In this document: positions 14,454 through 55,575 of the stretch, in pieces
Layout of the letters: each line of letters starts with the position of its first letter
Numbering within the stretch: position 1 is the stretch's first letter
NCBI RefSeq assembly: GCF_900102035.1
Contig: NZ_LT629689.1
Span: 5,614,501 to 5,678,500 of the forward strand
From: Pseudomonas extremaustralis
GTDB lineage: Bacteria > Pseudomonadota > Gammaproteobacteria > Pseudomonadales > Pseudomonadaceae
Length of the DNA: 64,000 nucleotides
Direction: 5' to 3'
Made by a program: the position numbers and the translations under genes
Notes under the pieces: generated by a model
Database searches by the model: none
The model's input: the letters and a program-made list of their open reading frames with translations, nothing else
Told to the model about the DNA's origin: nothing

Positions 14454-14588
14454 CCGTGACGTCTCGGCTGCGGGCAAGGCGTCCGAGTCTGCCGCAGCAA
14501 AAAACGCTTGGATGAACGGTTTTGAAAATCAGAATGGGCTTACGAAGAGCGCATCATAGTCAGCGCAAAGTCACGGCTGAGGGCTACT

Positions 14589-30027: not shown

Positions 30028-30097
30028 GCAAGCCAGACACTTTTCTGTGCAGCTCAGCGAGTCAGTTGTCGGGCACCCATAATTTTAGGAGGGCGTC

Positions 30098-31564: not shown

Positions 31565-31570
31565 GTGGCG

Positions 31571-31690
31571 TTGTATTTGACGGGTATTTGATTCGTCGTC
31601 TGTTGGGCGGCATATTTTCAAGGCTAAAGCCTCTAAATCATTACGCTTGCGGCGTTAGCCTGATGTTTTTTGTATTTGATGGGTATTTGA
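31571..31690 (+). promoter_or_regulatory. Paired GTATTTGA direct repeats upstream of hsdR
   Basis: Two 21-base blocks, TTGTATTTGAYGGGTATTTGA, at 31571-31591 and 31670-31690 differ at one base. Each block itself contains GTATTTGA twice, 11 bases apart (one helix turn), so there are four copies. Between them GGCTAA...TTAGCC can form a hairpin. The arrangement in the 229-base gap between the AlbA_2 gene and hsdR looks like a set of operator sites for independent control of the restriction subunit. Confidence 0.6.
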
Positions 31691-31793
31691 CTGGTGGCTC
31701 AGCTTGTCGGCACCGAGCATTAGACGAACTCAAGACCAACTTTAGACAAACTGCCTCTCTCAGATAGGGGCGGGCCAGACGAAGGATCGCCCC

Positions 31794-38000: not shown

Positions 38001-38350
38001 TGGAGCAGGTTCTGCCGGCTTGGTATCAGGGCCTAAGGCACCTGCATGAAGCCAATCGGAACTGGCCTACCTTGCTGGGCAGCGAACTTTCCAGCTGGAT
38101 TGACAGGCAGTTGCTGCCGCCTCTGGTGAAAGCTCTTTCGCTGGCGGAGTTCACCGATGCAGTGGCCTATCTACCGATCTTCATGGCTTTTGTCACCGCT
38201 GGACGGGCCAAAATCACCGACTTGCCAGCAACGCCGGCCTATTTGAAATTTGCTATCCGTCTGGTTGCCGACTTCGACCGCCAAGGCTGGTTCATACCGG
38301 TACATGCCTTGGTGGTGTCCTATTTACTCGCCTCGCAGAACGAGGCATAA
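35051..38350 (+). CDS. DruH-like protein of a Druantia type III system
   Basis: A 1099-residue protein with no recognised catalytic motif. It starts after AAGGAG at good spacing and is followed nine bases later by the helicase gene, so the two form one operon. The middle third is beta-rich (many short strands with Gly/Asp turns); the C-terminal part is helical (SCYLSTGN-like turns, VTAGRAKITDLPATPAYLK). Druantia type III consists of just DruH, a large protein of unknown function, and DruE, a large DUF1998 helicase. Size, order and partner agree with this; sequence identity to DruH was not tested. Confidence 0.72.
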   Translation: MELNAPATTAAKAWLSELLFIRTMFKGPDGKPLYSYHVTESEYRSLIEMLSSYFRRGSVQNYSTHLAACFCLFVSEQYRRDYNSSWSWSGPETILGISLSPQQHASLTSSGLAYWSRPIRFRENSRDWLGSLFAEGGLPWPLVQSESHGFGRAVRRGIKHFYRTEGNRRTTADLMADFENELPLIFRNLETRRLLAGIVDQLMYLVEHYPLKDQQDPANYLDKVAPGWTDAFPIPLDESNSRTLLNDWLRDAGQKRQERKEALEKARVFTCEHFLYGTLPQWLIRTELILPQEATFVVDPTSLGSTRLELAYYEGERLLARGPAVYGQLTEQGFKVRFSNPQVTLERRRLDEPLSLRLLDNGRMVHCQFFDGSALDYHDIPLIFENRSERWQLVASSSCSLSSGLVRLRVPPGFATNCEGGAANFLLEDQENGLWLEANVNLSLVRGDDHYQVELNQADNDDAKPTLTGIFALYESSPAMVYLGWPNLELPEGYPHAREDLLEFVNGELLDRQRSSRCGSARYTLRTRSGKTLLQRRFGVLPRDFNLSLFPGVREQPARLQIKGVAQLDLHVVSNALVVERDENSLYMRHQGEAPPSTFVLELGQGLPSLQLHLPYPYQGARLLDQYGNPSRARELILADLMGHRISLTSGLTQGQNFHMQLELICAEQPHPQRTYSIRVGSAPVMLNLFSYLGDMQNMLGAVDEQDAYIRFSLETEQPLLKLDIRRYGGQLQWEGRHAFYVSGVSNTSVLDGVQAEAMLLSDPKRTPLQLTERTSEAVGIGSFEIPQAMQPRGPWLIYPAESSSIRFRPALYVVPVNGLDTAAEICSLHRAAEVFHPEHNPHAIDQQIAAMAYDFNHSGWQYLADLKQNYRHLPLSSFETWKALSRNQEALSFSVFRLEMDESFCARIRDELSVIWETIPLPLWAQAYRLFHDYMRLTGLPDALVNTLVSKRAEALRCIVSGFDYLGDYLSTGNCSSLKKLPLEQVLPAWYQGLRHLHEANRNWPTLLGSELSSWIDRQLLPPLVKALSLAEFTDAVAYLPIFMAFVTAGRAKITDLPATPAYLKFAIRLVADFDRQGWFIPVHALVVSYLLASQNEA

Positions 38351-38359
38351 GGAGTTGCA

Positions 38360-41300
38360 ATGCATTTTTTTAGGGATTTGATTCAGCAAAGCCTTGAACG
38401 TACCCGCGAGGCGACGCTGGGTGTTCTGGGCATCAATCATCCGGGCCTTCGTCAGCATCTGAGTCAAAGTATGGTGAACGAGCTTGGGGCCGACGGTTGT
38501 TTCCTGGCCCCACCAGTGTTCGAGCACACTTTTGGCTGGAAGGAGTCCAAGCTGCGCCTGCAGGATCTGCAGGATGAGCAGCTACTGTCATCCTGCCTGC
38601 TTGATACATTGGAGAATGCGCCGGCTTACCAGTTCCCGAGAACTGCACATCCCTACGTTCACCAAGTGCAGGCTTGGCGTACCCTGCGCGACGAAAAACC
38701 GCGCTCGGCCGTCATCACTACCGGCACCGGCTCGGGCAAGACCGAATGTTTCATGGTGCCGATCCTAGAAGATCTGGTTCGCGAGCATGAGTGCAGTGCG
38801 GCAGCCCTGGTGGGCGTCCGCGCTCTATTCCTCTACCCACTCAATGCCCTGATCAACTCCCAGCAGGAGCGCCTTGACGCCTGGACTCGCAAGTACAGCG
38901 ATAACATCCGCTTCTGCCTTTACAACGGCAAGACCGAAGAGCGCGCCGACAAAGTCCGCAAGGAACAGCAACAGAAGCCCAATCAGATCCTGTCGCGGGA
39001 ACTGCTACGCAGGGAGCCCGCTCCCATCCTGATGACCAACGCCACTATGCTGGAGTACATGCTGGTACGCCAGGTCGACAGCCCGATTCTGGAGATCTCG
39101 AAGCAGCAACAGTCACTACGCTGGATCGTCCTCGACGAGGCTCATACCTACGTGGGTTCCCAAGCAGCCGAACTGTCCCTATTGCTTCGCCGGGTAGTCC
39201 AGGCTTTTGGAATGCAGTCCGAGCAAATTCGTTTCATCGCTACCTCGGCCACTATAGCTGGCGCTGATGCCGAAGAGCGACTGAAACACTATCTGGCAAA
39301 CCTTGCAGGTGTTGCACTTGATCAGGTTGAGGTCATAGGCGGCTCGCGCTTTTGGCCAGATCTTGCGTTCGACTCGCCAGGCGAAGACATCGCCCTTACG
39401 ACCATCTGCGATATCGATCCGGACGCCGAAGTATCTCCTACGCGCTTTGAGGCATTGTGCCAGAGCAACATTGCTCGGCGCCTGCGTCACGTCGTGATCA
39501 CCGCTCTCACGCCACTTGACCTTAACGACCTGATAGCTGAGGTTGCTGGGCATTTGCAGGGAGGCACCCGGCTCGAACAGCAGCGGGAGGTGCTCGACTG
39601 GCTCGACACCATGACCGGTACTCACCCGGATAAAAGCCAGCCTCCGTTTCTCAAGCTTCGGGTTCACCTGTTCCAGCGCATGCTTCATGGCCTCTGGGCT
39701 TGTGTCGACCCACAGTGCAGAGCGAAATCCAGTCATCTGCAGGACTGGTTGTTCGGTAACGTATATGTGAACCAGCGAGCACGCTGCGAGTGCCATGCCC
39801 CGGTGTATGAGTTGGGTTTCTGTGATGACTGCAAGACACCTCACCTTCTGGCCGAGGATCGCAACGGTGAGTTGCACCAGCCTAGTCCCTATGCGGGTGA
39901 CGAGTTCGCTCTCAACCACGAACAGGGCGGCGAGGACTCACCTGCCGAAGTGGCAAGAATCGACGCCGGCAGTAAGGGGCTGATCATTGCTGGGATGCAG
40001 GCAGCACACGACCCCTATTTCTCGTACAACTTGGACCTCGAAAGTCAGAAGTTGGGTGGCGTGAACGCTACCCGCAATATCGGCATCGTGTTGGTAGAGG
40101 AGGCAAACTCCTGCTGCAGCAATTGCGATCACTCATCATTTGGCACCAACGATTTTATACGCAAGGCATACCTCGGTGCGCCCTTCTATGTTGCCAACGC
40201 CGTACCGACGGTTCTGGAATTCTGCCCCGATCCTGACAAGGAAGATTGCAATGGCCGTTCCCCCGAGGAACTGCCGGGGCGCGGACGCAAGCTGATCACC
40301 TTCACTGACAGCCGCCAGGGCACGGCGCGAATGGCAGTCAGAATGCAGCAGGAGGCAGAGCGTTCACGGCTACGGGGGCTGGTGTTCGAAAGTCTGCGAA
40401 ATGAGCAAGCCAAGGTCGACGCCGCTCCCAAAGACACTCCTAGCGGCAGTCCTGCAGAAATGCTCGTTCTAGCAGACAGCCTGGAAAAACAGGGCTTGGC
40501 CGGTACGGCGGCAGATCTGCGTAAAAAAGCTGAGCTTTTGCAGAGCGGCGCCTCTCTGGTAAGCCCGGCCAGAGTTATTCCCTGGCAGCAGATGGCCCAA
40601 ACCATTGCAGCAGCGAAGGATATTGACCAATTCATTTTGCGCTACAACCGCTATGCCAATCCGGCGTTATTTGATGGCTATGAAGGCGGTCTGACTATGG
40701 CGCGTTTACTGCTGGCGCGCGAATACGCCCGGCGGCCCAAGAATCAAAACAGTACAGAAACGCTGGGGCTAGTCAAGGTTGGCTACCAGGGGTTGAACAA
40801 GGTTTCGGCGCCTCCGCCGCTGTGGGTCGATACTCGGGCCACTCTCGCAGAAGGCGATGCTAATGATCCCAGAAGCTCTCTGACACCGGAAGACTGGCGC
40901 GATTTCCTGAAAGTGGCCCTCGATTTCTACGTCCGGGAAAACACGTTCATCCCAATGGAAACCAAAATGCGTCGCTGGATGGGCAGCCGCTTCAGCCCAA
41001 AGGCGCTCTATTCGCCTAAGAGGGAGGACGTGCAGGAAAGCAACACCATCAGAAAATGGCCACAGATCAAGCCTGGGACGCCGAATCGTCTGATCAAGCT
41101 GCTCGAGCTGGCAACCGGCCTTGATCGCAACCTGAGTGCGGATGCCGACAAGATCAACAGCTGGCTAGAGGCGGCATGGACGGCACTAGTCAGTGCAGGC
41201 ATTCTGGAGGCCTCCGATACTGGCCATCGTCTGCGCCTGGAAACTCTTACCTTCTCGCTGCCTACCGAGGGCTGGGTCTGCCCGCTGACTCGGCGTATCT

Positions 41301-44300
41301 TCGACACCACCTTCCGTGGTCTGACGCCCTATCTGCCGCAAAAAATACAGAGCCAGGATTACCGTTGCCAAAAGATCCAGCTACCAGCTTTTAGTAGTCT
41401 CAAGGACGATGGCAGCCCATTGCGCAAGCAAATGCAGATCCGTCAATTGGTCGCAAAAGATCCAATAATTGCCCAGTTACGTCAGGAGTCACTGTGGACT
41501 GATATCAGCGACCGTACAGTCGAGGGTGGTTTTTACTATCGGACAGCTGAACACTCGGCCCAACAGTCGGCAAAACGGCTGGATAACTATGTTGAGGAGT
41601 TCAAGCGTGGCGACATCAACGCGCTGAATTGCTCCACCACCATGGAGATGGGGGTGGATATCGGCGGCATTTCCGCCGTGGTGATGAATAACCTACCGCC
41701 ACATCCAGCCAACTATCTGCAGCGCGCCGGCCGGGCCGGACGACGCAAGGAAGCGCGGGCTATTGCCTATACGCTTTGCAAGGCCGACCCACATAATCAG
41801 CGAGCCTTCGCCAATCCTAAGTGGCCGTTCGTAACCGCCATTCCGGCCCCAATCATTACGCTCAGCTCAGCGCGTATTGTGCAGCGGCATGTCAACTCTA
41901 TGTTGCTGGCGTTATTCCTGCGCATGCACAGCAGCAATGATGGCGATCGTACCAAGCTTACCCTGCACTGGTTTTTCGCCCCGGACGACTCGCCCTGCCA
42001 ACACTTCAAGGCCTGGCTAACGGCGAGCGCCGAGGAATATGGTAGTCCGGTGAAGCAACTGGTGCGTGGCACCTGTTTGGAGGGCCGCTCGCTCAGCTCA
42101 ATCACTGGTGGAGCCCGACTGGCGTTGCACGATCTCGAGGAACGCTGGTTAGGTGAGTATCGTAATATTAATCAGAAGCTTCAGGCCGCCAGCGACGGGC
42201 CTTACAAGAAGGCACTGGCACTGGAAAAACAGCGCCACGAGAATGAGTACCTGCTTCGCTATCTGGCGTCCTCTGCATTCCTGCCTGGATATGGCTTTCC
42301 TACGGATGTAGTGAGCCTCAAAACTTACAATGTCGAAGACTTCTTGCATCAACATAGAAAAGAGGATGCTAGTCGCGAAGACAGCATCTTCGACAACAAG
42401 GAAATGCCATCACGCAGCTTGAATATCGCAATTCGTGAATATGCTCCCGGCGCACAGGTAGTGATCGATGGACGCGTCTATCGTTCCGCCGGTGTCAGCC
42501 TGCAGTGGCATGCTGATGGACAGGTCAACGAGGCACAAAAGTTCGATATCGCCTGGCGCTGCTCGGAGTGCGGTAGCACTGGGGTGATCGAAAACGCCTA
42601 TGCAAACGACGCAGGGCTGTGCTGCTCGCATTGCACGACGCCGATTCCATCCAGCGAGCGCCGCATGGTGCTTCGTCCGGGCGGCTTCGTAACCGACTTT
42701 TACGAGGAAACCACCAACGACGTCACTTCGCAAAAGTTCATCCGCGTCGAGCGACCGCGCATCCAGCTGATTGGAGAAAGCATTGCGCTGCCTGATGAAC
42801 GCTGCGGCTTTGTGCGCTTTGGTCATGAAGGCAGTGTTTTCCATCACTCATCCGGCGAACATGAAAAAGGTTATGCCGTCTGCATGACCTGTGGACGTGC
42901 CGAGTCCATCCTCGCCTCGGGCGAAGTGCCTAAGGATTTGCAGCCCGATAAAGCCCACCGCCCGGTTGGCGGAGTTGCCGGCAGCCGCAAGGAGAGAGAT
43001 TGTTCGGGCGAAGCGGTCAAGGCTGGTCTGCATCTTGGTTATCAGATTCGCACCGATGTATTGGAAATATTCCTCAGGAACCCACTCACTGGAGAATGGC
43101 TACTTGACTCAATCAAGGGGCGTCTGATCGCCGCGACTATCGGCGTCGCCATGCGCGATGTGATCGCCGACCGACTCGGTATTGCCAGCGGAGAGATGGG
43201 TTTCAGCTATCGTTTGGATCGCGACAGAGACAGCAGGCAAGGGCGCTCCGTCATCCAGTTGTTCGATGAAGTCAGCGGTGGTGCCGGTTTCGTTCTGGCC
43301 GGCCTGAGCGATCTCGCTCTGCTACTGAATAAGGCGCTGGAGCGCCTGCGCTGCCCAGTCGACTGCGAGAATGTCTGCTCGCATTGCCTAGCCAGCCAAG
43401 ATAGCCGTGTCGAGCGCGAGGAACTGGACCGCAAACTGGCGCTGCAATGGCTGAGTGAGTCTCAACTGGTTGAACACCTTGGGCTTCCAGATGTATTCGT
43501 AAACATCCATGGCGCTCGCCACTGCTCCGTTGGCCCGCTGCGTGAGCTGAGTTTCGCCGTTAGTTCGTTGGATCGCCGTGATCAAACAGGATCGATCCTA
43601 GTGTGTCTACACGGCGACCATGTGAACTGGGATCTCGACCATCCACGTTTTAGGGAGCAGGTGCTTACCTGGGCAATCGCCGAGCGGCTCAAAGTCAGGA
43701 TCGGCATTACCGATTCCGCTTTGTTGAGTGCCGAGCAAAAGGAAACCCTAGCATTGCTTGCACGTTTGGGCGTTGAGCTACTCGAGCTGGATGCTACAAA
43801 TCTGCAAGCTCCCCACCTGATTGCCCAGTTGTCATCTCAAGCAGGCGTCGGAAGCCTGTATAGCAGCATGAACAGTGTTGGAGTTCCCGGGGGCGATTGG
43901 CTACAAGGTCATTCTGATGTGGTCTGGGTCACCAGCAGACTGATGGCAGCAGTGCCAGGAAATACCATCGACAGCAGTGGCTGGAACCAACGCAAGCAGG
44001 GAGCGCGCATTGTTGAAATCACCTCGCAGCTCGATGGCCCAGTCAACACTCTGAGAAGACGCCTAACTACCCTGATCGACGCCCAGATGCCGGAGCTGGC
44101 CACCCTGATTACCAATGATCAGGCAGTGTCCATCAGCTACTCGGATCGCTACCTGAAGTCGCCGTGGTCTCTGATGCTGCTAAGCGGCTTCCTGGAACTG
44201 TTCCGTAGTGATTATCTGCAATCGTTATCAGTACAAACTCTGGCGCCGAGCGGTAACCAGCCAAGTTATCTGCTCAGCCATGATTGGATGCGGGCGGATA

Positions 44301-44623
44301 ATCAGCAGGCCATTCTCGAGCTCTGGCTCAAGAGCCAGTTTGATATCGTCCCGAACATCAACATCAACATCATGAGCAGCCCCCGTGACTTGCTTCACTG
44401 CCGGGTTATCACGGTGAGCTGGGCGTCGGGTAGGGTCAGCAAGATTTTGCTGGATCAGGGTATGGGCTACTGGAGAGGCCGCATGCCATATAGGGATCAA
44501 ATGAATTTCGACTTCGGTACCTCACACCACGAACAGGCCAGGCAGATGATTGAAAAATATTCAAATGCGCATATGCATCAGGGGGGAGAGTGGCCGACTT
44601 ATATCAGTTGCGTCATTGATTGA
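38360..44623 (+). CDS. DruE-like DEAD/DEAH helicase with DUF1998 (Druantia type III)
   Basis: A 2087-residue SF2 helicase. Walker A TTGTGSGKTEC is near residue 120, DEAH box IVLDEAHTYVGS near residue 255, motif V CSTTMEMGVDIGG near residue 1092 and motif VI YLQRAGRAGRRKEA near residue 1117. Cys clusters suggest Zn sites: CDDC near 490, CSECG...CCSHC near 1402-1425, and CPVDCENVCSHC near 1665. The last belongs to a DUF1998 domain that also includes FDEVSGGAGFV. The C-terminal 350 residues include a PLD-fold-like stretch but no clear HKD motif. The size and DUF1998 place it with DruE; DISARM drmA/drmB and MrfA are shorter or split. It starts nine bases after druH. Confidence 0.82.
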   Translation: MHFFRDLIQQSLERTREATLGVLGINHPGLRQHLSQSMVNELGADGCFLAPPVFEHTFGWKESKLRLQDLQDEQLLSSCLLDTLENAPAYQFPRTAHPYVHQVQAWRTLRDEKPRSAVITTGTGSGKTECFMVPILEDLVREHECSAAALVGVRALFLYPLNALINSQQERLDAWTRKYSDNIRFCLYNGKTEERADKVRKEQQQKPNQILSRELLRREPAPILMTNATMLEYMLVRQVDSPILEISKQQQSLRWIVLDEAHTYVGSQAAELSLLLRRVVQAFGMQSEQIRFIATSATIAGADAEERLKHYLANLAGVALDQVEVIGGSRFWPDLAFDSPGEDIALTTICDIDPDAEVSPTRFEALCQSNIARRLRHVVITALTPLDLNDLIAEVAGHLQGGTRLEQQREVLDWLDTMTGTHPDKSQPPFLKLRVHLFQRMLHGLWACVDPQCRAKSSHLQDWLFGNVYVNQRARCECHAPVYELGFCDDCKTPHLLAEDRNGELHQPSPYAGDEFALNHEQGGEDSPAEVARIDAGSKGLIIAGMQAAHDPYFSYNLDLESQKLGGVNATRNIGIVLVEEANSCCSNCDHSSFGTNDFIRKAYLGAPFYVANAVPTVLEFCPDPDKEDCNGRSPEELPGRGRKLITFTDSRQGTARMAVRMQQEAERSRLRGLVFESLRNEQAKVDAAPKDTPSGSPAEMLVLADSLEKQGLAGTAADLRKKAELLQSGASLVSPARVIPWQQMAQTIAAAKDIDQFILRYNRYANPALFDGYEGGLTMARLLLAREYARRPKNQNSTETLGLVKVGYQGLNKVSAPPPLWVDTRATLAEGDANDPRSSLTPEDWRDFLKVALDFYVRENTFIPMETKMRRWMGSRFSPKALYSPKREDVQESNTIRKWPQIKPGTPNRLIKLLELATGLDRNLSADADKINSWLEAAWTALVSAGILEASDTGHRLRLETLTFSLPTEGWVCPLTRRIFDTTFRGLTPYLPQKIQSQDYRCQKIQLPAFSSLKDDGSPLRKQMQIRQLVAKDPIIAQLRQESLWTDISDRTVEGGFYYRTAEHSAQQSAKRLDNYVEEFKRGDINALNCSTTMEMGVDIGGISAVVMNNLPPHPANYLQRAGRAGRRKEARAIAYTLCKADPHNQRAFANPKWPFVTAIPAPIITLSSARIVQRHVNSMLLALFLRMHSSNDGDRTKLTLHWFFAPDDSPCQHFKAWLTASAEEYGSPVKQLVRGTCLEGRSLSSITGGARLALHDLEERWLGEYRNINQKLQAASDGPYKKALALEKQRHENEYLLRYLASSAFLPGYGFPTDVVSLKTYNVEDFLHQHRKEDASREDSIFDNKEMPSRSLNIAIREYAPGAQVVIDGRVYRSAGVSLQWHADGQVNEAQKFDIAWRCSECGSTGVIENAYANDAGLCCSHCTTPIPSSERRMVLRPGGFVTDFYEETTNDVTSQKFIRVERPRIQLIGESIALPDERCGFVRFGHEGSVFHHSSGEHEKGYAVCMTCGRAESILASGEVPKDLQPDKAHRPVGGVAGSRKERDCSGEAVKAGLHLGYQIRTDVLEIFLRNPLTGEWLLDSIKGRLIAATIGVAMRDVIADRLGIASGEMGFSYRLDRDRDSRQGRSVIQLFDEVSGGAGFVLAGLSDLALLLNKALERLRCPVDCENVCSHCLASQDSRVEREELDRKLALQWLSESQLVEHLGLPDVFVNIHGARHCSVGPLRELSFAVSSLDRRDQTGSILVCLHGDHVNWDLDHPRFREQVLTWAIAERLKVRIGITDSALLSAEQKETLALLARLGVELLELDATNLQAPHLIAQLSSQAGVGSLYSSMNSVGVPGGDWLQGHSDVVWVTSRLMAAVPGNTIDSSGWNQRKQGARIVEITSQLDGPVNTLRRRLTTLIDAQMPELATLITNDQAVSISYSDRYLKSPWSLMLLSGFLELFRSDYLQSLSVQTLAPSGNQPSYLLSHDWMRADNQQAILELWLKSQFDIVPNININIMSSPRDLLHCRVITVSWASGRVSKILLDQGMGYWRGRMPYRDQMNFDFGTSHHEQARQMIEKYSNAHMHQGGEWPTYISCVID

Positions 44624-45060: not shown

Positions 45061-48000
45061 ATGGACGTACGCTATTGGGAAGGAGGTCTCCTTTCTTTTG
45101 AGATCGACGCTATCGACAAGATGGCCAAAGCATTTGGGCCCAAAGAGCTTCCTCCGGAACCGGTGGCAGGCTCTACGAAAGGGAAGTCGTTTGACGTTCT
45201 GAAACAATTGAAGAAGCCTGAGGCAGGCCATGGCGTATGGCCTTGGCGCGGCTACGCAGGTTTTCGTTTCGCGAACTCGCGGGGGGCAGACGGGGAGTTC
45301 GACCTCGTCATCGTTACCCACAGCCTCGTTCTTGTTGTCGAACTTAAGCACTGGCGCGGTGAGATCACCAACCACGGCGGTAAATGGCACCAGGACGGGA
45401 AGGAAACAGAAGTATCCCCGGTAGACAAAACCCGTAGGAAAACATATGAGTTGAGGAAACGAATCAAGGGTCTCAAGTCTCGGCTGCCTGGCGGGAAAGA
45501 GCCTTGGATCGACTTCTGCGTTGTGCTCACCGGAAAATGCACTTTGAATCTTCCCGAGGTCGAGATGCAGCACGTCATGGTGCTGGACGACTTTCTGGAA
45601 ATGGCCGATCCTAAGCGGTTTAAAGACCGATTCAACGCGCGCTCGAATATCGGCTTGAACGAGCATTTCGGCTTCTTCGACGGCATCATCAATGAAGGAA
45701 CGGTAAAGCCCAAAGAGCTTGTTGTCGACGACTACCGTGCGCAGTCGCAAGCGGTATTCACGCACCCAACAGACGTCTACCGAGAGTACGACGCGGTCAA
45801 TATCCACAACAAGGATGACCGTGCGATGGTCCGTCTATGGGACTTTTCGAAGCTCGATGACACCCGTGCTCGAACGGCTGAAGGACGATACCGAATCCTC
45901 TCGCGCGAGAGGGATGTAATGGTCCACCTGCGTCGGCGAGATCAGGAATTGATGAATCGCTGCGCTCGCCCGAAGCGTAATACCAGCCCCGACAGTGTCA
46001 CCGAGCAATATGCCGAGTTGCTTGAAATGCCCGACGGGCATTACCGTCTAAACGAGTTCATAAACCGTTTTGTAGAGCGGATGACTGCGCATGAGCGCGT
46101 CCAGCTTTTTAAAATCCTTCTGGCTCAATTTGCTGGGCTGCATGGATTCAAAATTGCTCACCGTGATCTGGGTGACCACAGCGTGTGGTTCTCTCCATCG
46201 TCATCGATCGCTCTTTCCAACTTCATCAGCGCCTACTATCAGCCTGTAGGTACTCTCGGCGATTTGCGTACTTTGCTGAGCATCGGTGCTATCGCGCTCC
46301 CTGAAGACCAGAACACCGCGATGGAAGGCAGCACGCCATTTCGTCGTGATGTCTTCGCGCTCGGGCTGATGGGTTGGCATCTGCTTCAGGCCAGGCCAAT
46401 GCCTCTGAAGCTCGACGTCGCCTACGTTGCGGGTGTTCAAGCTCAGGTTGAGTCATCAGAAGACTGGCCTGCCAAGGTGCTCGTACAAGCGTTGCAGAAT
46501 GATCCGAAGGAGCGATTCGATCACGCCAGCGCATTTCAGCAGGCATTGAGCGACTCCACACCGGATAACTCCGCAAGCTTTGAATTTGATAACCGGCGAC
46601 TTGACGTTTTCTCTACCGATCTACGACTGAGCTCCGCGTACCGGGAGGACGACGAGCCTATCACCGACACGGCTGAGAAACTGATCTACCGATCGGGCCC
46701 CTTGGTCGTGAAATCGTGGCCGTCAATCAACGCCCGGGATCCCAAGGACGGTCAAGGGCCGATGTTGATGGCTTTCTTCGAAGTCCTGGAGCAACTGAAG
46801 GGCAGCGGTTTTACCTTTTTGCCAAAAATTGAACACTTTGGTTACGATCGCAGCGGCAACCCATTCCTGGCTCAGGAGCATATCGACGGTGAGCACTGGG
46901 ATGAGCTGAAGGGGTTGTCGGTTGAGACCCGTATCGTCGTCGCCCATGGGCTAATCGACGCAGTTGATGGTTTGCATGGCCAGCAATTGAGTCACGGCGA
47001 TCTGCATCCACACAACGTTAAAGTAAATGTCGGTTCGGCCCCTGAAAACACCCAGGTCTACCTGCTCGACTGTCCAGATTTCTCGGCTTCAGGTACATCA
47101 CCGGTCAACACCCGCTACAGCCCCGTATTGGAAAACTGCACACCAGCAGAGCGAGACAACTTCGCTGTGATGCGAATGGTGTTTGAGCTCCTGGACATGG
47201 ACTGGGACGCGCCGTCGCAGAAGGATATTCCCGTCCTGAGAGCAGCCGTTGCGCACGAAATGGATACAGAATCGGGCTTTCTTTCTTTGGACCGTTTTAA
47301 GGACGCTTTGGAGGCCGCTTTCGCACCTGCAAAAACGATCGAAACCGTCTCTGTCGTTCTACGCAACAGAAGTGGCGAGGCATTTGAGATCCTGCCGGAC
47401 AACGGGAAAGTATTTGTTGTCGTGAAGCCCTACCAAAGAGCCCCCACCAAAGCCCTTGAGGTGACGTTCGCGGGTGTCGGAGGGCAATTGACGGCTGAGT
47501 TCGATCCTGCTTCCAGGCATTTTGTAAATGCGTTCAAAGCCAATCAGGAGATGCGCGTTCCGGCTTATCTGGCGCGTCAGGCAAACCACCACATAGAGGC
47601 TCGGTTCAGCGTCTCGGGCGGTACCAGCGTCAATGTCTATGAGCTGACCAAGCTTCTGGCCAAAGACGAGGCATTTCTAAGCTTAGCCGCACAGGTGCAT
47701 GACGCCGAAGTGCGTAAGCAAGCGGCGATTGAGGACGGTGAAAGTGTTGCGGACTCGATTACCGGTGAGGACGAGGACAACGGGCTTGCCATAGATGAGG
47801 CGCAGCTAGAAGCTGTAAAGTTGCGCAGTTTCCCTGTCAGTCAAATATGGAAAACCATCACCTCCACCGAGCTTGAGGCCCAGCCTTCTTTCCGTGTTTC
47901 CGAAGAGCCGCACTTTCACAAGGATGGCGTAGGCCTTTTGATTCCCTACTCTATGGATGCAAAGGCCCTTGAGGGGTTTGAAGCGGGAGACAACATCCGG

Positions 48001-50097
48001 CTGATCCTCCGGGACGGGGAGAAGGACATTGATATCGGTGAGATCAACCTGGGCATGAGCGTGCGTGATGCAGTCTATGTCCCTGCCTCCAGTCGTTCAA
48101 AACGCGTACAGGCAGGCTCCCAGTTGTTCATCCAAAGTCAGCAGAACAAGACATCAATGACGCGTCGTCGTGGTGCGATGGAGCGGATCCTGAACCGGCA
48201 GTCAGTGCTGCCTGATTTGATGGATTACTTCGACGAGAAATGCAAGCTGGCACCAAGGGGGTATGCTGAAGAGCCTACCGTTTCGGACTTTGCAGTGTAC
48301 GAACGCACCACAGCGAGTGGTACGGTCATCGGGCTGAACGAAGCCCAGCGCGCCGCGTTCACGCAGCTCATCACTACAGGGCCAGTAGGCCTTTTGCAGG
48401 GACCTCCAGGGACAGGTAAAACTGAGTTCATCGCGGCCTTCATCCATTACCTGATCAGCAAGGTCGGAGTGCGAAACATCCTTCTTGTCAGCCAGTCTCA
48501 TGAGGCTGTGAATACTGCAGCAGAACGGATCCGCGCGCACTGCCGTCGACTGAACACCGAGCTCAACGTTGTACGCTTCAGCAACCGCGACCAGGTTGTT
48601 TCTGAGGAGCTCCTGGACGTTTATTCTCGCAACATTGTCGACCGTCAGAGAAATGGGTTTAGCGCTGAGCTGAAGGAACGCGTGGGTTCCATGGCTTCGT
48701 CGTTGGGTTTGGGCAAAGCTTTCGTCCAGACGATGGTGGATGTGAATCAGCGAGTGTTCCACTTGGTTCGGTCGTTGAAAAAGCTGGACGAGGAAATTCA
48801 GCGTGCACAAAAGGGCAACGGGGCAGATCGAAGGGCGTTGCAGACGCTGAAGTCCTCTCTGATGGGCGAGCTGAATCTGAATGCCACCTTGTTTCTTGGC
48901 GAACTGGTTGAGGGCGAAAGCACTCCCCAAGAATTACTGGAGCGCGTCTATGACCATGTCCAAACCGTTCATGGAGTTAGGCCCCCAGAGTTTAAACACT
49001 GCCTTGACCTGATTCAGCTTTCTCAGGAGTACGTTGAGCGTCTGTCGAGCAACAGGGCCAATTATGATGAGTTCCTGATGCGGTCCAGGACATTGGTTTG
49101 CGGAACGTGCGTGGGTATTGGGCTGCAACATCTCAAGCTTTCAGAAACCCACTTCGACTGGGTCATCATCGACGAAGCTGCTCGATCGGCGCCGAGTGAA
49201 TTGGCGATCGCCATGCAGGTGGGCTCTCGGGTCCTGCTAGTCGGCGACCACAACCAGCTGCGCCCTACGTATGAGGAAGAACATAAGGCAGCCATTGCCC
49301 GTTCCCTGGGTGTCACCACGAGCTCAGCCGAATTCCAGCAGGTCATGCGAAGCGACTTCGAGCGAGTGTTCCAATCCCCGTATGGTCGTGCCACACGGGC
49401 GACGCTCAATACGCAGTATCGAATGCTCCCAGCGATTGGCGATCTAGTTAACGAGATCTTCTACGACATTGACCTTGAGAACGGCTACAGACCAAGTCCT
49501 GCCTATTTTTCGCAAAACGTGCCCGAGTGCCTGTCACATGTGGTCACTTGGGTCGACACCAGCGAGTTAGGCAAAAAAGCCTACGACAGCGGCACGCTGA
49601 GCCTGTCCAACAGTGCTGAAGCGGACGCGATCATCCGACTGCTGGAAGAAATCGCAGAGGACACCGAATTTTGTGCGGGCATGGCTAAGGAGATGGCCGA
49701 ATCGCAAGAGCCCCCAATCGGGGTCATCTGCATGTATCTCGACCAGAGGAAACTGGTGAGAAAGAGGTTTGCCGAGAAAAACTGGTCGGAGGAGTTCCGC
49801 AAGCTCGTAAAAATCGAGACCGTCGACAGTTATCAGGGTAAAGAAAACAACATAATCATCGTCTCACTGACCCGGGCCAAAGCGGATCAATCACCTGGCT
49901 TTCTGGCGACCCCGAATCGTATCAACGTCGCGATGTCACGCGCGATGGAGCGGTTGGTCATCGTAGGCAGTTTGAAAATGTGGAGCGGTAGGAACGCGAG
50001 GCTTCCATTAGGTCACGTAGCCAGCTTTATCCAGACGAAACAGGACACGATCAACTATTGCATCAAACCAGTGACGCCGGCCAGGAGGGTTGTCTGA
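45061..50097 (+). CDS. NERD - double kinase - SF1 helicase fusion protein (Mokosh type I MkoA-like)
   Basis: A 1678-residue fusion. Residues about 60-170 are a NERD nuclease-like domain (GEFDLVIV...VVELKHW, with the D-ExK pattern near 81-97). Residues 260-490 form a first kinase-like fold with HRDLGDHSVW near 367 but no DFG, so possibly inactive. Residues 560-790 form a second kinase fold with SHGDLHPHNVKV near 644 and LLDCPDF. The C-terminal 600 residues are a Upf1-like SF1 helicase: Walker A GPPGTGKTE near 1116, IIDEAARS near 1370, GDHNQLRPTY, LNTQYRMLP, DSYQGKENN and NVAMSRAMERLVIVG. Kinase plus RNA/DNA helicase followed by a PLD-like partner matches Mokosh type I in outline. A NERD-kinase pair also recalls PglW, but PglW lacks this helicase. 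Confidence 0.78.
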   Translation: MDVRYWEGGLLSFEIDAIDKMAKAFGPKELPPEPVAGSTKGKSFDVLKQLKKPEAGHGVWPWRGYAGFRFANSRGADGEFDLVIVTHSLVLVVELKHWRGEITNHGGKWHQDGKETEVSPVDKTRRKTYELRKRIKGLKSRLPGGKEPWIDFCVVLTGKCTLNLPEVEMQHVMVLDDFLEMADPKRFKDRFNARSNIGLNEHFGFFDGIINEGTVKPKELVVDDYRAQSQAVFTHPTDVYREYDAVNIHNKDDRAMVRLWDFSKLDDTRARTAEGRYRILSRERDVMVHLRRRDQELMNRCARPKRNTSPDSVTEQYAELLEMPDGHYRLNEFINRFVERMTAHERVQLFKILLAQFAGLHGFKIAHRDLGDHSVWFSPSSSIALSNFISAYYQPVGTLGDLRTLLSIGAIALPEDQNTAMEGSTPFRRDVFALGLMGWHLLQARPMPLKLDVAYVAGVQAQVESSEDWPAKVLVQALQNDPKERFDHASAFQQALSDSTPDNSASFEFDNRRLDVFSTDLRLSSAYREDDEPITDTAEKLIYRSGPLVVKSWPSINARDPKDGQGPMLMAFFEVLEQLKGSGFTFLPKIEHFGYDRSGNPFLAQEHIDGEHWDELKGLSVETRIVVAHGLIDAVDGLHGQQLSHGDLHPHNVKVNVGSAPENTQVYLLDCPDFSASGTSPVNTRYSPVLENCTPAERDNFAVMRMVFELLDMDWDAPSQKDIPVLRAAVAHEMDTESGFLSLDRFKDALEAAFAPAKTIETVSVVLRNRSGEAFEILPDNGKVFVVVKPYQRAPTKALEVTFAGVGGQLTAEFDPASRHFVNAFKANQEMRVPAYLARQANHHIEARFSVSGGTSVNVYELTKLLAKDEAFLSLAAQVHDAEVRKQAAIEDGESVADSITGEDEDNGLAIDEAQLEAVKLRSFPVSQIWKTITSTELEAQPSFRVSEEPHFHKDGVGLLIPYSMDAKALEGFEAGDNIRLILRDGEKDIDIGEINLGMSVRDAVYVPASSRSKRVQAGSQLFIQSQQNKTSMTRRRGAMERILNRQSVLPDLMDYFDEKCKLAPRGYAEEPTVSDFAVYERTTASGTVIGLNEAQRAAFTQLITTGPVGLLQGPPGTGKTEFIAAFIHYLISKVGVRNILLVSQSHEAVNTAAERIRAHCRRLNTELNVVRFSNRDQVVSEELLDVYSRNIVDRQRNGFSAELKERVGSMASSLGLGKAFVQTMVDVNQRVFHLVRSLKKLDEEIQRAQKGNGADRRALQTLKSSLMGELNLNATLFLGELVEGESTPQELLERVYDHVQTVHGVRPPEFKHCLDLIQLSQEYVERLSSNRANYDEFLMRSRTLVCGTCVGIGLQHLKLSETHFDWVIIDEAARSAPSELAIAMQVGSRVLLVGDHNQLRPTYEEEHKAAIARSLGVTTSSAEFQQVMRSDFERVFQSPYGRATRATLNTQYRMLPAIGDLVNEIFYDIDLENGYRPSPAYFSQNVPECLSHVVTWVDTSELGKKAYDSGTLSLSNSAEADAIIRLLEEIAEDTEFCAGMAKEMAESQEPPIGVICMYLDQRKLVRKRFAEKNWSEEFRKLVKIETVDSYQGKENNIIIVSLTRAKADQSPGFLATPNRINVAMSRAMERLVIVGSLKMWSGRNARLPLGHVASFIQTKQDTINYCIKPVTPARRVV

Positions 50098-51536
50098 TGG
50101 AGCTTAACCCAGTTGTTCTATTCGAGCTGGACGTCGTGGTCCCTGCGCAACAGTTCCGTATCGAGTACACCCTTGTGGACAAAGGGGGGTTACCGGTTGT
50201 ACCGGAATTTCTTCTGCGACTGCTCAAGATTTCAGCGCTGCTGCCAGCTGAAATCGGCAATTATTTTGGGTTTACAGCTCAAGAGCTGAGTTTTGCAATC
50301 ACACCTTTTTTACAAACGGGCGAGCTTAAAACGCGCCCGGATGGACGAATAGAGTTGACGGATAAGGGCCGTAGCTTGTTCGCAGGCAACCATGAGTCAC
50401 CGATTGTGAAACGCAAGGAAGAGCGCGAGCAGATGTTCGTGTTTGATCTCCTAACGTTTACATGCCTGGGGAAAAGTCTAGGGGATGCAGATTCTAAAAG
50501 GTGCCTGGAATTGCAGGCACCCAGCGATACGCTCTCTGAGTCAGGTACGAAGGCCGTCGGTGCCTTCATGCGGCAAATCTACGACATTCATCGGGCTGGA
50601 CACCTGGGTGGGCAGTCGCAGGATGCTGGGCCGCCGGAGCTCTACAAAGTTGCGGGTGTGCAAAAAGTAAGAGACGGTTGGGAGAAAATAGAAGAGCGCG
50701 TCAGCCTTGATGCCGACTCTCGGCTGGTACGCTTTGTCGCGAAGGAAGGGCTGCGGGAAAACGAGATCTACATGCGTCAGCGTACGGAGCAGTTGAGCCG
50801 AATGCTGGGCAGAGAAAACCTCGATCAGGTTCTGCAGCTCGCCGACATCCTGGGCGATTCGGACGCCTACGACTTCGTGTCTTCAAATGGTCTGGACCTT
50901 TCTGCCCTGTACTACAGCGCGAGTGCCGTTGCACAGGTTAGAGAGTCTTCCGGGCTGCGACTTTTTGGATCGCTACAGCTGCAGCAAAACTGGGACAGAG
51001 TTTTTTCCGTGCTGCGCAAACATCAGAAAGCAGTTCAGAGTGAATCCCACGCTGCTCCGATCAGCCTGTCCTGGATGGCTCCGGCTTCACATGAGCTCTG
51101 GGGACGCTCGGCCAGGCATGAGCAGATGTGCAGTGCATTTTCTGATTTATCAAAAACAAAAAGCAAGGGAGGCGCGAATGATGGAAAACTTGTATTCGAC
51201 GCCAAAATGCTTATCCCGGTTTCTGCCAGTGACGATTGGCCGGCGATCAAGCGCGCAAAAGCAGATTGCAATAAGGCTAGACTGCTGCTTTGTGGCTTTG
51301 TTGAGTCAGAGCAACTGGCGCCGCTTGAGGCAATCGTCATTCACGGCAAATGCGCGGTCGTGGTTTACCATTTAATTTTGCCGGCGTTGTCCCCAGTGCC
51401 GATACCCTTTGGTTTCATCACCGAGGATCCCGCCAAGATCCTTAATGTTGAAAACCTCATCAACCGCACGATGGGCGAGTACGTCACAGGTAATACACCG
51501 CGTTTCCTCGGCAGCTTCGAACCACCTGCGACCTGA
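50097..51536 (+). CDS. Winged-helix/PLD-like partner of the kinase-helicase (MkoB-like)
   Basis: The ATG at 50097 overlaps the last base of the upstream stop and follows AGGAGG, giving 479 residues; longer readings lie inside the helicase gene. Residues 35-105 look like a winged helix (LLRLLKISALLPAEIGNYFG, LKTRPDGRIELTDKGR). The C-terminal part, residues 385-450, resembles a phospholipase D-fold half with KARLLLCGFVE and VIHGKCAVVVYHL. The HxK is present but the Asp of HxKxxxxD is replaced by Val and no second copy was seen, so it may be inactive or atypical. Tight coupling implies one complex with the kinase-helicase. Assignment to MkoB is tentative. Confidence 0.65.
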   Translation: MELNPVVLFELDVVVPAQQFRIEYTLVDKGGLPVVPEFLLRLLKISALLPAEIGNYFGFTAQELSFAITPFLQTGELKTRPDGRIELTDKGRSLFAGNHESPIVKRKEEREQMFVFDLLTFTCLGKSLGDADSKRCLELQAPSDTLSESGTKAVGAFMRQIYDIHRAGHLGGQSQDAGPPELYKVAGVQKVRDGWEKIEERVSLDADSRLVRFVAKEGLRENEIYMRQRTEQLSRMLGRENLDQVLQLADILGDSDAYDFVSSNGLDLSALYYSASAVAQVRESSGLRLFGSLQLQQNWDRVFSVLRKHQKAVQSESHAAPISLSWMAPASHELWGRSARHEQMCSAFSDLSKTKSKGGANDGKLVFDAKMLIPVSASDDWPAIKRAKADCNKARLLLCGFVESEQLAPLEAIVIHGKCAVVVYHLILPALSPVPIPFGFITEDPAKILNVENLINRTMGEYVTGNTPRFLGSFEPPAT

Positions 51537-52257: not shown

Positions 52258-52362
52258 AGCGGCTTTCAGCCCGCCATTGGTCTGACTTTGGAGTGTCCGT
52301 ACTCAACATAACGAGTCCCAGGGGTAACGTGGATTTCTCCATCGAACGCAATGGAGAACATC

Positions 52363-53595
52363 ATGCTCTCTCGAATCTTCCCCAAGACACATCGACGCTA
52401 TGTCGAATCGCCCGCTGGCTGCTGGTTCGAAGGCTTTGCGGACTGGCTAACGTCCGTCGGCTACGCACGCGGTCCCACTTGCCATCACGTTCACAGACTT
52501 AAACTGGTGCTTGAACGCATCGAATCGATCGCACCGGATGCCAATTTCTCGGTACACCAACTCGATACGATATTCACTTCGGTGCGAACTCGACCTCAAT
52601 ACCGTGCAACCCGGTGTGCCTTTGAACGCTTTCTGGCTGCTCGCAGGCTTCTGACCATAGAACCCGATGTCGATCGGTTTGTCCCGCTACTCAAGGTATA
52701 CCGCCATCACCTCATTGAGGTTCGCGGCTTGGCGCCGCCAACGGTAAGTCAACATATCTCGACCATTGCCGAATTTCTGACGCAGTCCGTGCCACATGAG
52801 GCGGCGCTTCTGGATCTGTCGGCGCCAGCCGTAGAACAGTTTGTCATTACCAAGGGCCAACTGATGAAGCGCCAGAGCCTGCAGCATCCTATCGCCAGAT
52901 TGCGTGCCTTTCTCCGCTACTGTTTCGACCACGGCTATATTCAGGAACGTCTCTATATGATCGACACGCCGCGCACCTATCGCGATGAAGCCCCGCCGCG
53001 TGCTATTGCCTGGCATTTGGTGCAGCAACTATTGCAGTCAGTCGATCGCAACAGCAAAGCCGGTTGGCGCGACTACGCCATCCTGCACTTGATGGCTTAC
53101 TACGGATTGCGGCCATCGGAGATCGTGGCGCTCACCGTGGCATCGATAGATTGGACAGCCCGGACGTTGCGTGTCGATCAGCGTAAGACCCGCTCGATCT
53201 TGATCCTGCCGCTATCCGATCCAACGCTGAGCCTGCTCAAGCGATATTTGCATTGCGGTCGGCCTAGCAGCACTTGGCCGGAATTGTTCCTGCGGGTAAG
53301 AACACCGCTGGCTCCGATACAGCATTATGCGGTCTGCGAACTCTACGAGAAGCGCGCGCGGCAAAGCGGACTGTCGCTCGGTGGCAGCTCTTCCTATTGC
53401 CTGCGCCACGCCTTCGCCATGCGACTGCTTGAGCGCGGTGTAGGCGTCAAGGCGATCGGCGATCTGCTTGGGCATCGCTCGCTGGAAAGCACTTGCGTTT
53501 ACCTTCGGCTGCAAACCGAGTCGTTACGTGACGTGGCACTACCCCTTCCATGCCGGCATGCTGCGCAAAAGGGGGATCACCATGTTCTCCACTGA
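52363..53595 (+). CDS. RIT tyrosine recombinase, first gene
   Basis: 410 residues from the ATG at 52363, which has GGAG at good spacing; an in-frame ATG 12 bases upstream is possible. The N-terminal SAM-like core-binding domain is followed by the catalytic domain with Arg in YYGLRPSEIVAL near residue 250, then LRHAFAMRLLERGVGVKAIGDLLGHRSLESTCVYLR, which supplies HxxR-type residues, the second His and the nucleophilic Tyr. The stop overlaps the next start by 14 bases. Looks intact. Confidence 0.9.
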   Translation: MLSRIFPKTHRRYVESPAGCWFEGFADWLTSVGYARGPTCHHVHRLKLVLERIESIAPDANFSVHQLDTIFTSVRTRPQYRATRCAFERFLAARRLLTIEPDVDRFVPLLKVYRHHLIEVRGLAPPTVSQHISTIAEFLTQSVPHEAALLDLSAPAVEQFVITKGQLMKRQSLQHPIARLRAFLRYCFDHGYIQERLYMIDTPRTYRDEAPPRAIAWHLVQQLLQSVDRNSKAGWRDYAILHLMAYYGLRPSEIVALTVASIDWTARTLRVDQRKTRSILILPLSDPTLSLLKRYLHCGRPSSTWPELFLRVRTPLAPIQHYAVCELYEKRARQSGLSLGGSSSYCLRHAFAMRLLERGVGVKAIGDLLGHRSLESTCVYLRLQTESLRDVALPLPCRHAAQKGDHHVLH

Positions 53596-54553
53596 GACCG
53601 CACTCGACCTGAGCATTGCGCGCTATCTGCAACTTCAGCGATCGCTTGGTCGAGCTTATGAAAATGAAGAGCGTGTCCTCACGTCGGTCCGCCGGTTCCT
53701 GGTGGCGGCGACAGGTACAGATCTGGACTACGATCGCTTCCTTGAGTGGTGCAACACGCTCGCCGGGCTTAGCAGCACGGTGCGACGCAACCGGCAGCGC
53801 ATCGTGCGCAATTTTTGCCTGTATCGACAGCGCACCGAACCGCAGTGCTTTGTACCCGACCCCAACCACTTCCCACGACCCTGTCCCGCTGTCACCCCCG
53901 TCATCTTCGGTTCGAGCGAGGTCGCGAGTATGCTCGCGGCTGCGGAGCAATTAGGTCCGGTGCCCACGTCGCCTCTGCGGCCAGCGGTCCTGCGGCTGGC
54001 CGTCGTGCTCCTCTATACGGCAGGATTACGTCGCGGCGAACTGCTACGGCTGACCCTAGCCGATGCCGACTCGGCGCAAGGCGTATTGCATATCCGCGAA
54101 TCGAAGTTCCACAAGTCCCGCTTCGTTCCACTATCGCAGGACGCCCATCGTGAACTGCGCGCCTATCTCAAGCAGCGGCTGGCGCCGCCCTTCAGCATCA
54201 CGCCGAATTCTCCCTTGCTGTGCAACTGCGCCAGAGGCTTGCGCGGCTATACGGGGACAGGAATAAGCCGTGGCATCCAAACGCTATTCCAAACGGCAGA
54301 TGTTCACAGTAGCGATGGTCGACGGCCGCGGATTCATGACTTTCGGCATAGCTTTGCCGTTCAGGCACTGCTGCGTTGGTATCGGCAAGGCGCCGATGTG
54401 CAATCCAACTTACCGAAACTAGCGCTGTATATGGGACACGTGTCGATTGTCTCTACCGCTTATTACCTGCGCTGGATGCCGGATATTGCGGCAGCGGCCA
54501 GTGATCGCTTCCAAGACCACTTCGGCCATTTGATTGTTGGAGGTGCGCCATGA
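53582..54553 (+). CDS. RIT tyrosine recombinase, second gene
   Basis: 323 residues; the ATG at 53582 is chosen because it follows AAGGGGGA and begins the family start MFSTETALDLSIARYLQLQRSLGR. Catalytic residues are visible in AGLRRGELLRL near residue 147, HDFRHSFAVQALLRWY near residue 253, and YMGHVSIVSTAYYL with the nucleophilic Tyr. It overlaps both neighbours (14 bases before, four after), which ties production of the three recombinases together. Confidence 0.9.
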   Translation: MFSTETALDLSIARYLQLQRSLGRAYENEERVLTSVRRFLVAATGTDLDYDRFLEWCNTLAGLSSTVRRNRQRIVRNFCLYRQRTEPQCFVPDPNHFPRPCPAVTPVIFGSSEVASMLAAAEQLGPVPTSPLRPAVLRLAVVLLYTAGLRRGELLRLTLADADSAQGVLHIRESKFHKSRFVPLSQDAHRELRAYLKQRLAPPFSITPNSPLLCNCARGLRGYTGTGISRGIQTLFQTADVHSSDGRRPRIHDFRHSFAVQALLRWYRQGADVQSNLPKLALYMGHVSIVSTAYYLRWMPDIAAAASDRFQDHFGHLIVGGAP

Positions 54554-55575
54554 AGCCCGCTCGGCCCAACTCGCTTGGTAATTGCATCACGCACTTCTTC
54601 CGGGAATACCTGCCCGAGCTCCGTGGCATGAGCCTGCACACGATTCGCAGTTATCGCGATGCTGTCGTGCTGTACTTGCGATTTGCCTCAGCTCGCAGCA
54701 AACGAGGCGTCGAGGATTTGGACCTCGACGATTTTACGGCAGATCGAGTCAGCCAATTCCTGACGCATCTGGAACAGGAGCGTCACAATGGTGTCGCGAC
54801 GCGCAATGCACGGCTGGCCGCTATCCATACCTTTGCCCGATTCCTGGCCAGCGAACACCCGGAGCATCTAGCCGAGCTGCAGCGGGTACTTGGGCTGCCG
54901 TTCAAGCGCGGCGCCCGAAGCGTACCCATGGCGTATTTCGAGGCTGACGAAGTCGACGCGATGCTCAATAGCATTGATCGCACTACCAACTCGGGGCGGC
55001 GCGACTATGCGTTGTTTGCACTGATGTTCAATACCGGTGCGCGCGTGCAGGAGGTACTCGATCTGCAGGTACGCGACGTGAGAACCGAGCCACCGCACCA
55101 AGTACGTCTGCGTGGCAAGGGCGGGAAGATTCGTTTATGTCCCATCTGGCCGCATACCGCGGGGTTGTTGCGGGAACTGGCTCAGCAGTCGGTACAGACC
55201 CTAACGCCGGAGGCGTTTCTGTTCACCAACCGACACGGTGCCAAACTCACGCGGTTCGGTGTTCGCTACCTCCTCAAGAAATATGTGGCCGCGGGTACAC
55301 CGGTGGCCAACACCATGCGAGAGAAGCGACTTCATCCGCATTCGCTTCGACACGCCACAGCGGTTCATTTGCTCAAGGCTGGCGTTGACTTCGCCACCAT
55401 TAGCCAGTGGCTGGGCCATGCGACGCTGAACACCACCATGGTCTATGCCCGGGTGGATTTGGATATCAAGCGCCAAGCGCTTGCCCAGGTGTTCCCCGAA
55501 GTACTGGCACCGCCACGTGCCGGCCATCTGTCGCCGGCTGCGGTCGATGTGGTCGATTGGCTGAAACGGCTGTGA
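54550..55575 (+). CDS. RIT tyrosine recombinase, third gene (XerC/D-like)
   Basis: 341 residues, starting ATGA-overlapped with the second gene. Core-binding domain HTIRSYRDAVVLYLRFA; catalytic Arg in NTGARVQEVLDLQ near residue 162, HSLRHATAVHLLKAGVDFATISQWLGHATLNTTMVYARVD near residue 263 with HxxR, H and Tyr. It ends 58 bases before the right terminal repeat. Confidence 0.9.
   Translation: MKPARPNSLGNCITHFFREYLPELRGMSLHTIRSYRDAVVLYLRFASARSKRGVEDLDLDDFTADRVSQFLTHLEQERHNGVATRNARLAAIHTFARFLASEHPEHLAELQRVLGLPFKRGARSVPMAYFEADEVDAMLNSIDRTTNSGRRDYALFALMFNTGARVQEVLDLQVRDVRTEPPHQVRLRGKGGKIRLCPIWPHTAGLLRELAQQSVQTLTPEAFLFTNRHGAKLTRFGVRYLLKKYVAAGTPVANTMREKRLHPHSLRHATAVHLLKAGVDFATISQWLGHATLNTTMVYARVDLDIKRQALAQVFPEVLAPPRAGHLSPAAVDVVDWLKRL

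Follow-up and report, generated by a model that had tools for sequence, protein, structure and literature searches.

In the table of a 2023 review (PMC10952713), the NERD domain (PF08378) is listed for Mokosh type I and for Nhi-like systems, and a PLD-like domain is assigned to Mokosh types I and II and to Azaca. A NERD domain accompanied by one inactive and one active kinase has been described for PglW and for a subset of DndF proteins in passages of a 2026 article on BREX (PMC12839542), according to which the NERD domain of PglW appears to be a backup nuclease. This article is not among the publications from 2022 on that were listed for the word Mokosh. An earlier paper on the PglW kinase reports a predicted ATP site in the second kinase only, a complete loss of autophosphorylation upon the K677A exchange, and an essential role of the kinase activity in phage resistance (PMC4365076). 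Here, a stretch of 64,000 nucleotides from Pseudomonas extremaustralis (contig NZ_LT629689.1, positions 5,614,501 to 5,678,500), referred to as the window, was analysed. It contains two adjacent genes, mkoA and mkoB, which, judged from profile matches, almost certainly constitute a complete operon of Mokosh type I, a known system of defence against phages, in the form that carries a NERD domain. The operon is located on a Pseudomonas chromosome, within a defence island; the genome consists of one 6.67-Mb contig, and the closest named matches are from the same genus.

The MkoA of the window matches the PADLOC model PDLC03921 with 1921.8 bits, and its residues 1-1671 align with positions 1-1600 of the 1607 positions of the model. 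The MkoB, encoded by the adjacent gene in the expected order, matches PDLC03923 with 374.3 bits over model positions 3-445 of 454. The outline of a Mokosh type I system recognized in the initial annotation of the sequence is thus confirmed by two models that match nearly end to end. However, the same annotation regarded the NERD domain and the second kinase as additions specific to this copy, which would make it a variant or a separate system. The model PDLC03921 spans both, and the same parts occur at the 30 NERD-type loci examined. Because known MkoA proteins already carry the NERD domain and both kinases, a result that the initial annotation had itself named as pointing to a standard system, the locus is a standard Mokosh type I system of the NERD form. 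The locus itself is not new; its domains are real and have already been catalogued. The gene mkoA is a single frame from an ATG at position 45061 to a TGA at position 50097, and the ATG of mkoB (50097) is located within the mkoA stop codon, with a one-base overlap (TGATG). The start of mkoB was previously placed at a TTG at position 50058; however, this would add 13 residues ahead of the methionine with which the closest relatives begin, and the ATG is the start adopted here.

The order of domains in MkoA is a NERD domain, a dead kinase, a live kinase, and a helicase, as indicated by the active-site residues that are kept or lost (Table 1). The conservation of residues was counted in an alignment of 24 NERD-type MkoAs that includes the protein from the window; columns that presumably correspond to the kinase and nuclease motifs were assigned from the alignment together with general knowledge. 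The NERD domain contains the PD-(D/E)xK-like residues E79, D81, E94, and K96, which are kept in 22 of the 22 aligned rows, that of the window among them, where the region is in frame. The presence of a NERD domain in the large protein, as previously predicted, is corroborated by the Pfam match and by the intact E/D/ExK residues. In the first kinase, an arginine (R258 in the window) occupies the expected position of the VAIK lysine in all 24 proteins, and the aspartate of the HRD motif (H367-R368-D369) is kept in all of them. The aspartate of the DFG motif, which reads S386-N-F in the window, is replaced in every row, by serine in 23 and by threonine in one. The second kinase of the window possesses all the catalytic residues that were checked, K551, H645-G-D647, N652, and D670; K551 is kept in 23, D647 and N652 in 22 each, and D670 in 24 of the 24 rows. 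The protein from the window alone gives a weak Pfam match to Pkinase (12.5 bits), and its residues 236-505 alone match no Pfam family at E 0.1. The Pkinase family is matched, at E up to 0.1, by 14 of the 18 members of the alignment for each of the two kinase regions, and the first region of the window is not among them. Nevertheless, the two kinase folds that were anticipated from the sequence, one of them without DFG, are recovered when profiles built from the 18 relatives are compared with Protein Data Bank (PDB) sequences, and the loss of the DFG aspartate is common to all 24 aligned MkoAs.

The Upf1-like helicase of superfamily 1 (SF1) in the large protein, also part of the initial annotation, is supported by the matches to AAA_11 and AAA_12. 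It contains the motifs GPPGTGKT at residue 1114, DEAA within IDEAARS at 1370, GDHNQLRP at 1395, and SYQGKE at 1590. In the comparison of MkoA with chains of solved structure, NAM7/Upf1 is the best match, and Sen1 and Dna2 come next; in each case it is the helicase that matches. The window thus has the Upf1-like SF1 helicase with Walker motifs and the kinase domain in MkoA that characterize Mokosh type I, the latter as two regions recognized by profile. By contrast, the PLD-like domain that the review table gives for Mokosh type I (PMC10952713) could not be recognized in the sequences of this system.

The claim that the partner protein is devoid of a catalytic PLD motif proved correct: no HxKx4D motif is present in the MkoB of the window, and the nearest string, HQKAVQSE, is located elsewhere. 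The further claim that the partner retains HGK from the PLD signature could not be upheld. The HGK triplet corresponds to residues 416-418, with a valine where the aspartate of the motif is expected, and is found at these columns in two of 55 aligned MkoBs, that of the window and a relative 90% identical to it. The strict HxKx4D motif occurs in two of the 55 rows, elsewhere in the protein. Other residues are conserved in the NERD-form MkoBs, for example E411 and G439, which are invariant, and H425, present in 54 of the 55. No PLD family is detected by Pfam at E 1 in the MkoB of the window or in 10 diverse relatives. The comparison of the C-terminal half of MkoB with the PLD part of the PLD-type MkoB using hhalign gave a probability of 0.2% (0.1-0.4% over five comparisons), whereas the two PLD halves of the PLD-type MkoB, which served as a positive control, match each other with E 1.1e-11. 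The interpretation of HGK as a worn HKD motif was rejected because of its rarity among relatives and the missing profile match of the C-terminal half; the triplet is peculiar to the closest kin of the window. It is concluded that the sequence of this MkoB provides no evidence for a PLD domain, although a PLD fold may have been kept without similarity in sequence. The missing PLD is a feature of the whole form rather than of the locus, since no such domain is recognized in the NERD-form MkoBs examined.

The N-terminal part of MkoB, about 115 residues long, is common to the NERD and PLD forms (hhalign E 1.3e-10 for the domain cut out and 3.7e-6 for the full profile). Weak matches suggest that it may resemble a winged helix. 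The search of MkoB against PDB sequences yielded four matches with E 0.57-0.84, the best two of which cover profile positions 48-93 and point to a cadmium-efflux regulator. For the C-terminal half, Pfam and PDB sequences provided nothing usable that would indicate a known fold.

The name Mokosh type I covers two forms. The loci compared here were selected through similarity searches and not at random; they were scanned with profiles made in this analysis. The 30 NERD-type loci, a number that excludes duplicate cuts as well as the truncated loci L009 and L070, all have mkoA adjoining mkoB. In five of them, the MkoB is either the same as that of the window or shares at least 91% identity with it (L003, which is the window, L004, L030, L061, and L063). 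The PLD form is represented by 14 loci (L046, L047, L071-L080, L081, and L082). A strict HKD string is present in MkoB at 13 of these, namely the first 12 and one piece of L081, in which an IS3 transposase gene separates two pieces of MkoB. The remaining locus, L082 (G209:C54, the same locus as L014), has no strict HKD, with SDAK where SHAK is expected, and its MkoA frame of 1260 amino acids is without NERD. In a 12-row alignment of PLD-type MkoBs, no row departs from the histidine and lysine in either motif. The MkoA of the PLD form has a single kinase-like domain, which is without the HRD aspartate and reads GFE in place of DFG in 12 of 12 rows. Among the MkoBs of the 30 NERD-type loci, a strict HKD string occurs in one, L069, as HRKLFTFD at position 117, far from the expected site of a PLD motif.

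It could be argued that MkoB is a PLD nuclease that has lost part of its HKD motif, and that the activity has moved to the NERD domain in this copy. The MkoB without HKD next to an intact NERD domain is consistent with this explanation, as is the distribution of the two domains: all 30 NERD-type loci have NERD, wholly or partly in a neighbouring frame at three of them, and none of the 14 PLD-type loci has it, whereas a strict HKD outside the N-terminal part is absent from all 30 of the former. However, the explanation is improbable, because the supposed remnant is restricted to two MkoBs, the C-terminal half shows no similarity to PLD, and the two clades described below provide one contrast instead of repeated swaps. 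Furthermore, L082 is a NERD-less system in which the PLD motif is nevertheless degenerate, and therefore the loss of HKD does not need NERD. If the nuclease is located in NERD rather than in PLD, this would apply to the NERD form in general, and would not be special to the locus.

The relationship of the two forms was studied using a tree of the helicase cores of 25 NERD-type proteins, 13 PLD-type proteins, and nine other helicases, calculated with a quick method and with several long branches flagged. The NERD-type and PLD-type sequences each constitute one side of a branch with a Shimodaira-Hasegawa-like approximate likelihood ratio test (SH-aLRT) support of 99, and the other helicases are positioned between them. 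A single clade of both forms is not rejected (approximately unbiased test, p 0.082). If L048 and L049 are left uncounted, the two together constitute one side of a branch with a support of 84. The helicase sequences thus indicate two deep clades, whether sister or not. Repeated nuclease swaps were considered and are not supported, and the contrast between NERD and PLD is a single one, because the tree sets each form apart by one branch. One of the two uncounted loci, L049 (G513), encodes a frame of 2268 amino acids; its second half resembles the kinase-helicase of MkoA (559 bits to PDLC03920) and is preceded by approximately 1070 other residues.

It is possible, although somewhat short of probable, that the PADLOC Mokosh type I comprises two distinct systems, and that the system of the window shares with the PLD one only the type of helicase, a kinase-like domain, and a winged-helix-like module. 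The split of the helicase tree, with other helicases in between, is in agreement with this, and so are the MkoBs of the two forms, which match each other in the N-terminal residues only. By contrast, the statistics allow a single clade, and in both forms a kinase-like domain is located ahead of the helicase and a gene encoding the common N-terminus adjoins mkoA, which points to a common plan. A more specific proposal, which is put forward tentatively, is that the two systems employ alternative nucleases. The type found in the window would have the NERD-pseudokinase-kinase front end of PglW and mad6-like proteins mounted on a Upf1-like helicase, no PLD, and phosphorylation-gated, helicase-coupled cutting by NERD, and the other type would have only a dead kinase and would cut with a separate PLD subunit. 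If there are two systems, claims made for Mokosh as a PLD-containing system would not be transferable to the NERD form, relatives of which are found in approximately 6% of complete Escherichia coli genomes, and Mokosh would become tied to PglW, whose kinase is reported to be essential. No publication that separates the two forms was seen in the titles and openings of abstracts that were listed, in a search that covered only a minority of the papers in subscription journals.

The present analysis establishes the domain content of the two proteins, their intact and degenerate active sites, the structure of the operon, and the family membership by profile. The following mechanism is proposed as the most likely one, in which every activity and the order of events are taken from the PglW precedent or from protein anatomy alone. 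The Upf1-like helicase of MkoA would engage phage nucleic acid and translocate on it, and MkoB, with its winged-helix-like N-terminus and family-specific C-terminal domain, may help to recognize or gate the substrate. The pseudokinase-kinase pair would autophosphorylate and switch MkoA on, and NERD with its intact PD-(D/E)xK-like site would then cut the nucleic acid. That the NERD domain is the effector nuclease is about as likely as not.

Several observations weigh against this mechanism. The NERD profile has no match among PDB sequences at E 1. At three of the 30 loci (L023, L026, and L052), NERD is located wholly or partly in a separate neighbouring frame; the domain may be dispensable, or these copies may be decaying or mis-assembled. 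Decay, sequencing error, and a real split are not distinguishable at the three loci. In three of the 24 aligned MkoAs (L023, L025, and L051), one or two of the checked residues of the second kinase are missing. A different division of labour, in which the second kinase is the effector and phosphorylates a host or phage protein while NERD does no more than bind nucleic acid or act as a backup, would be in line with the separate NERD frames, with the conserved residues of the second kinase, with the requirement for kinase activity reported for PglW (PMC4365076), and with the apparent backup role of the PglW nuclease (PMC12839542). Nevertheless, it is rather unlikely, since the E/D/ExK residues are kept in every in-frame row, as expected of an enzyme under selection.

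Relatives of the operon are found on plasmids and in E. coli. Searches with tblastn identified 157 plasmid records with a single place that spans 80% or more of MkoA. When one copy from E. coli was used as the megablast query, 332 of the 5426 complete genomes of this species had relatives, and in 309 of these the match extended over 80% or more of the two genes. The model PDLC03923 at E 1e-10 matches one of 369 genomes of the class, the window's own, and PDLC03922 at E 1e-15 matches six of 369, of which L014 is a PLD-form locus and five are partial, with no MkoA in the short loci fetched. The model PDLC03920 at E 1e-60 gave matches in 14 of 398 genomes, six of which have long frames that proved to be of the NERD type. 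The search with PDLC03921 gave matches in 92 of 95 genomes and in 13 of 14 control genomes; however, most of the matches listed cover the kinase or the helicase alone, and therefore only six near-full-length matches were used as MkoA, while three of the partial ones proved to be PglW or mad6-like. A Pseudomonas fontis contig, which may be from the same or a close strain, contains an MkoB frame 100% identical to that of the window. A plasmid of Pseudomonas mandelii carries a pair with MkoA 98.9% and MkoB 98.3% identical to those of the window, and this pair is adjoined by other, small genes instead of DruE in a gene table that is incomplete. Because of these different neighbours, mkoA-mkoB looks like a free-standing unit. 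In the genome record of Pseudomonas phage vB_PaeS-D14H (L027), a NERD-type Mokosh pair is located between two genes annotated as integrases.

The defence island extends upstream of the operon. On the other side, mkoB is followed by three tyrosine-recombinase frames in succession, which overlap and may provide the island with a mobility module. A search of the 64-kb window for tRNA genes gave no match. A minus-strand frame of 1548 amino acids at positions 9831-14477 has no PADLOC match at E 0.001.

Table 1 Features of the Mokosh operon and its surroundings. Positions are counted from the first nucleotide of the window.
Feature	Position	Strand	Length or residues	Assignment
mkoA	45061..50097	+	1678 amino acids	NERD, pseudokinase, kinase, and Upf1-like SF1 helicase; PADLOC PDLC03921, Pfam
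NERD domain of MkoA	45193..45531	+	45-157	Pfam PF08378, 53.4 bits, E 4.2e-14
Pseudokinase region of MkoA	45766..46575	+	236-505	Comparison of an 18-relative profile with PDB sequences: best E 3.1e-17, for example protein kinase 4eqm
Kinase region of MkoA	46576..47370	+	506-770	Comparison of an 18-relative profile with PDB sequences: best E 3.5e-11
Upf1-like SF1 helicase core of MkoA	48334..49971	+	1092-1637	PF13086/PF13087 (AAA_11/AAA_12)
mkoB	50097..51536	+	479 amino acids	Possibly winged-helix-like N-terminus, family-specific C-terminal region, no HKD; PADLOC PDLC03923
Defence island upstream of Mokosh	20943-44623
GajB	22591-24087			Preceded by a frame at 20943-22670
Type I restriction-modification set	25827-34982			HsdM/HsdS/HsdR-like, with PDC-S14 and AlbA_2/HATPase proteins between
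Druantia III	35051-44623			DruH and DruE
Tyrosine-recombinase frames	52351-55575			Three successive overlapping frames

The front end of MkoA is related to that of PglW, a protein of BREX type 2, and of mad6-like kinases. The PglW model PDLC02512 matches the MkoA of the window with 107.5 bits in two stretches, the better of which covers residues 61-498 in the N-terminal part. The first approximately 650 positions of the MkoA model align with three proteins from other genomes, those of L008 and L010 (192 and 144 bits), which are closest to mad6, and that of L012 (118 bits), which is a clear PglW (1351 bits). Because this front end is shared, partial model matches can confuse MkoA with PglW and mad6-like proteins. 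All three have the E/D/(D/E)xK pattern in NERD, a first kinase without the HRD aspartate, and a second kinase with the lysine, catalytic aspartate, and asparagine, and thus the same order of NERD, dead kinase, and live kinase as the MkoA of the window. However, the first kinases are dead in different ways, since the one of MkoA keeps HRD and lacks the DFG aspartate. The MkoA of the window has no C-terminal half with the PglW profile. No BREX genes adjoin it among the large flanking frames, which were examined in place of the whole window and belong to Druantia III and to the tyrosine recombinases. Unlike in MkoA, the kinases of PglW are followed by winged helix-turn-helix modules and an inactive STAND domain, and no helicase is described in the passages on PglW (PMC12839542).

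Among the Mokosh systems, the model of MkoC, the type II protein, matches the MkoA of the window with E 3.1e-28, and the best stretch, residues 1364-1660, belongs to the helicase part. MkoC of Mokosh type II is a single protein in which a helicase is fused to PLD. The PLD form of Mokosh type I (PDLC03920 and PDLC03922) resembles the system of the window in having a kinase-like domain, a Upf1-like helicase, and an adjacent MkoB with the common N-terminus; however, it has no NERD domain, only one kinase-like domain, and an MkoB with two PLD/HKD motifs. The NERD form (PDLC03921 and PDLC03923) agrees with the window in gene order, domains, and kept residues, with matches that are nearly full length. 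No difference of substance was found between them, although the sequences diverge, with the MkoA from an E. coli plasmid being 40% identical to that of the window.

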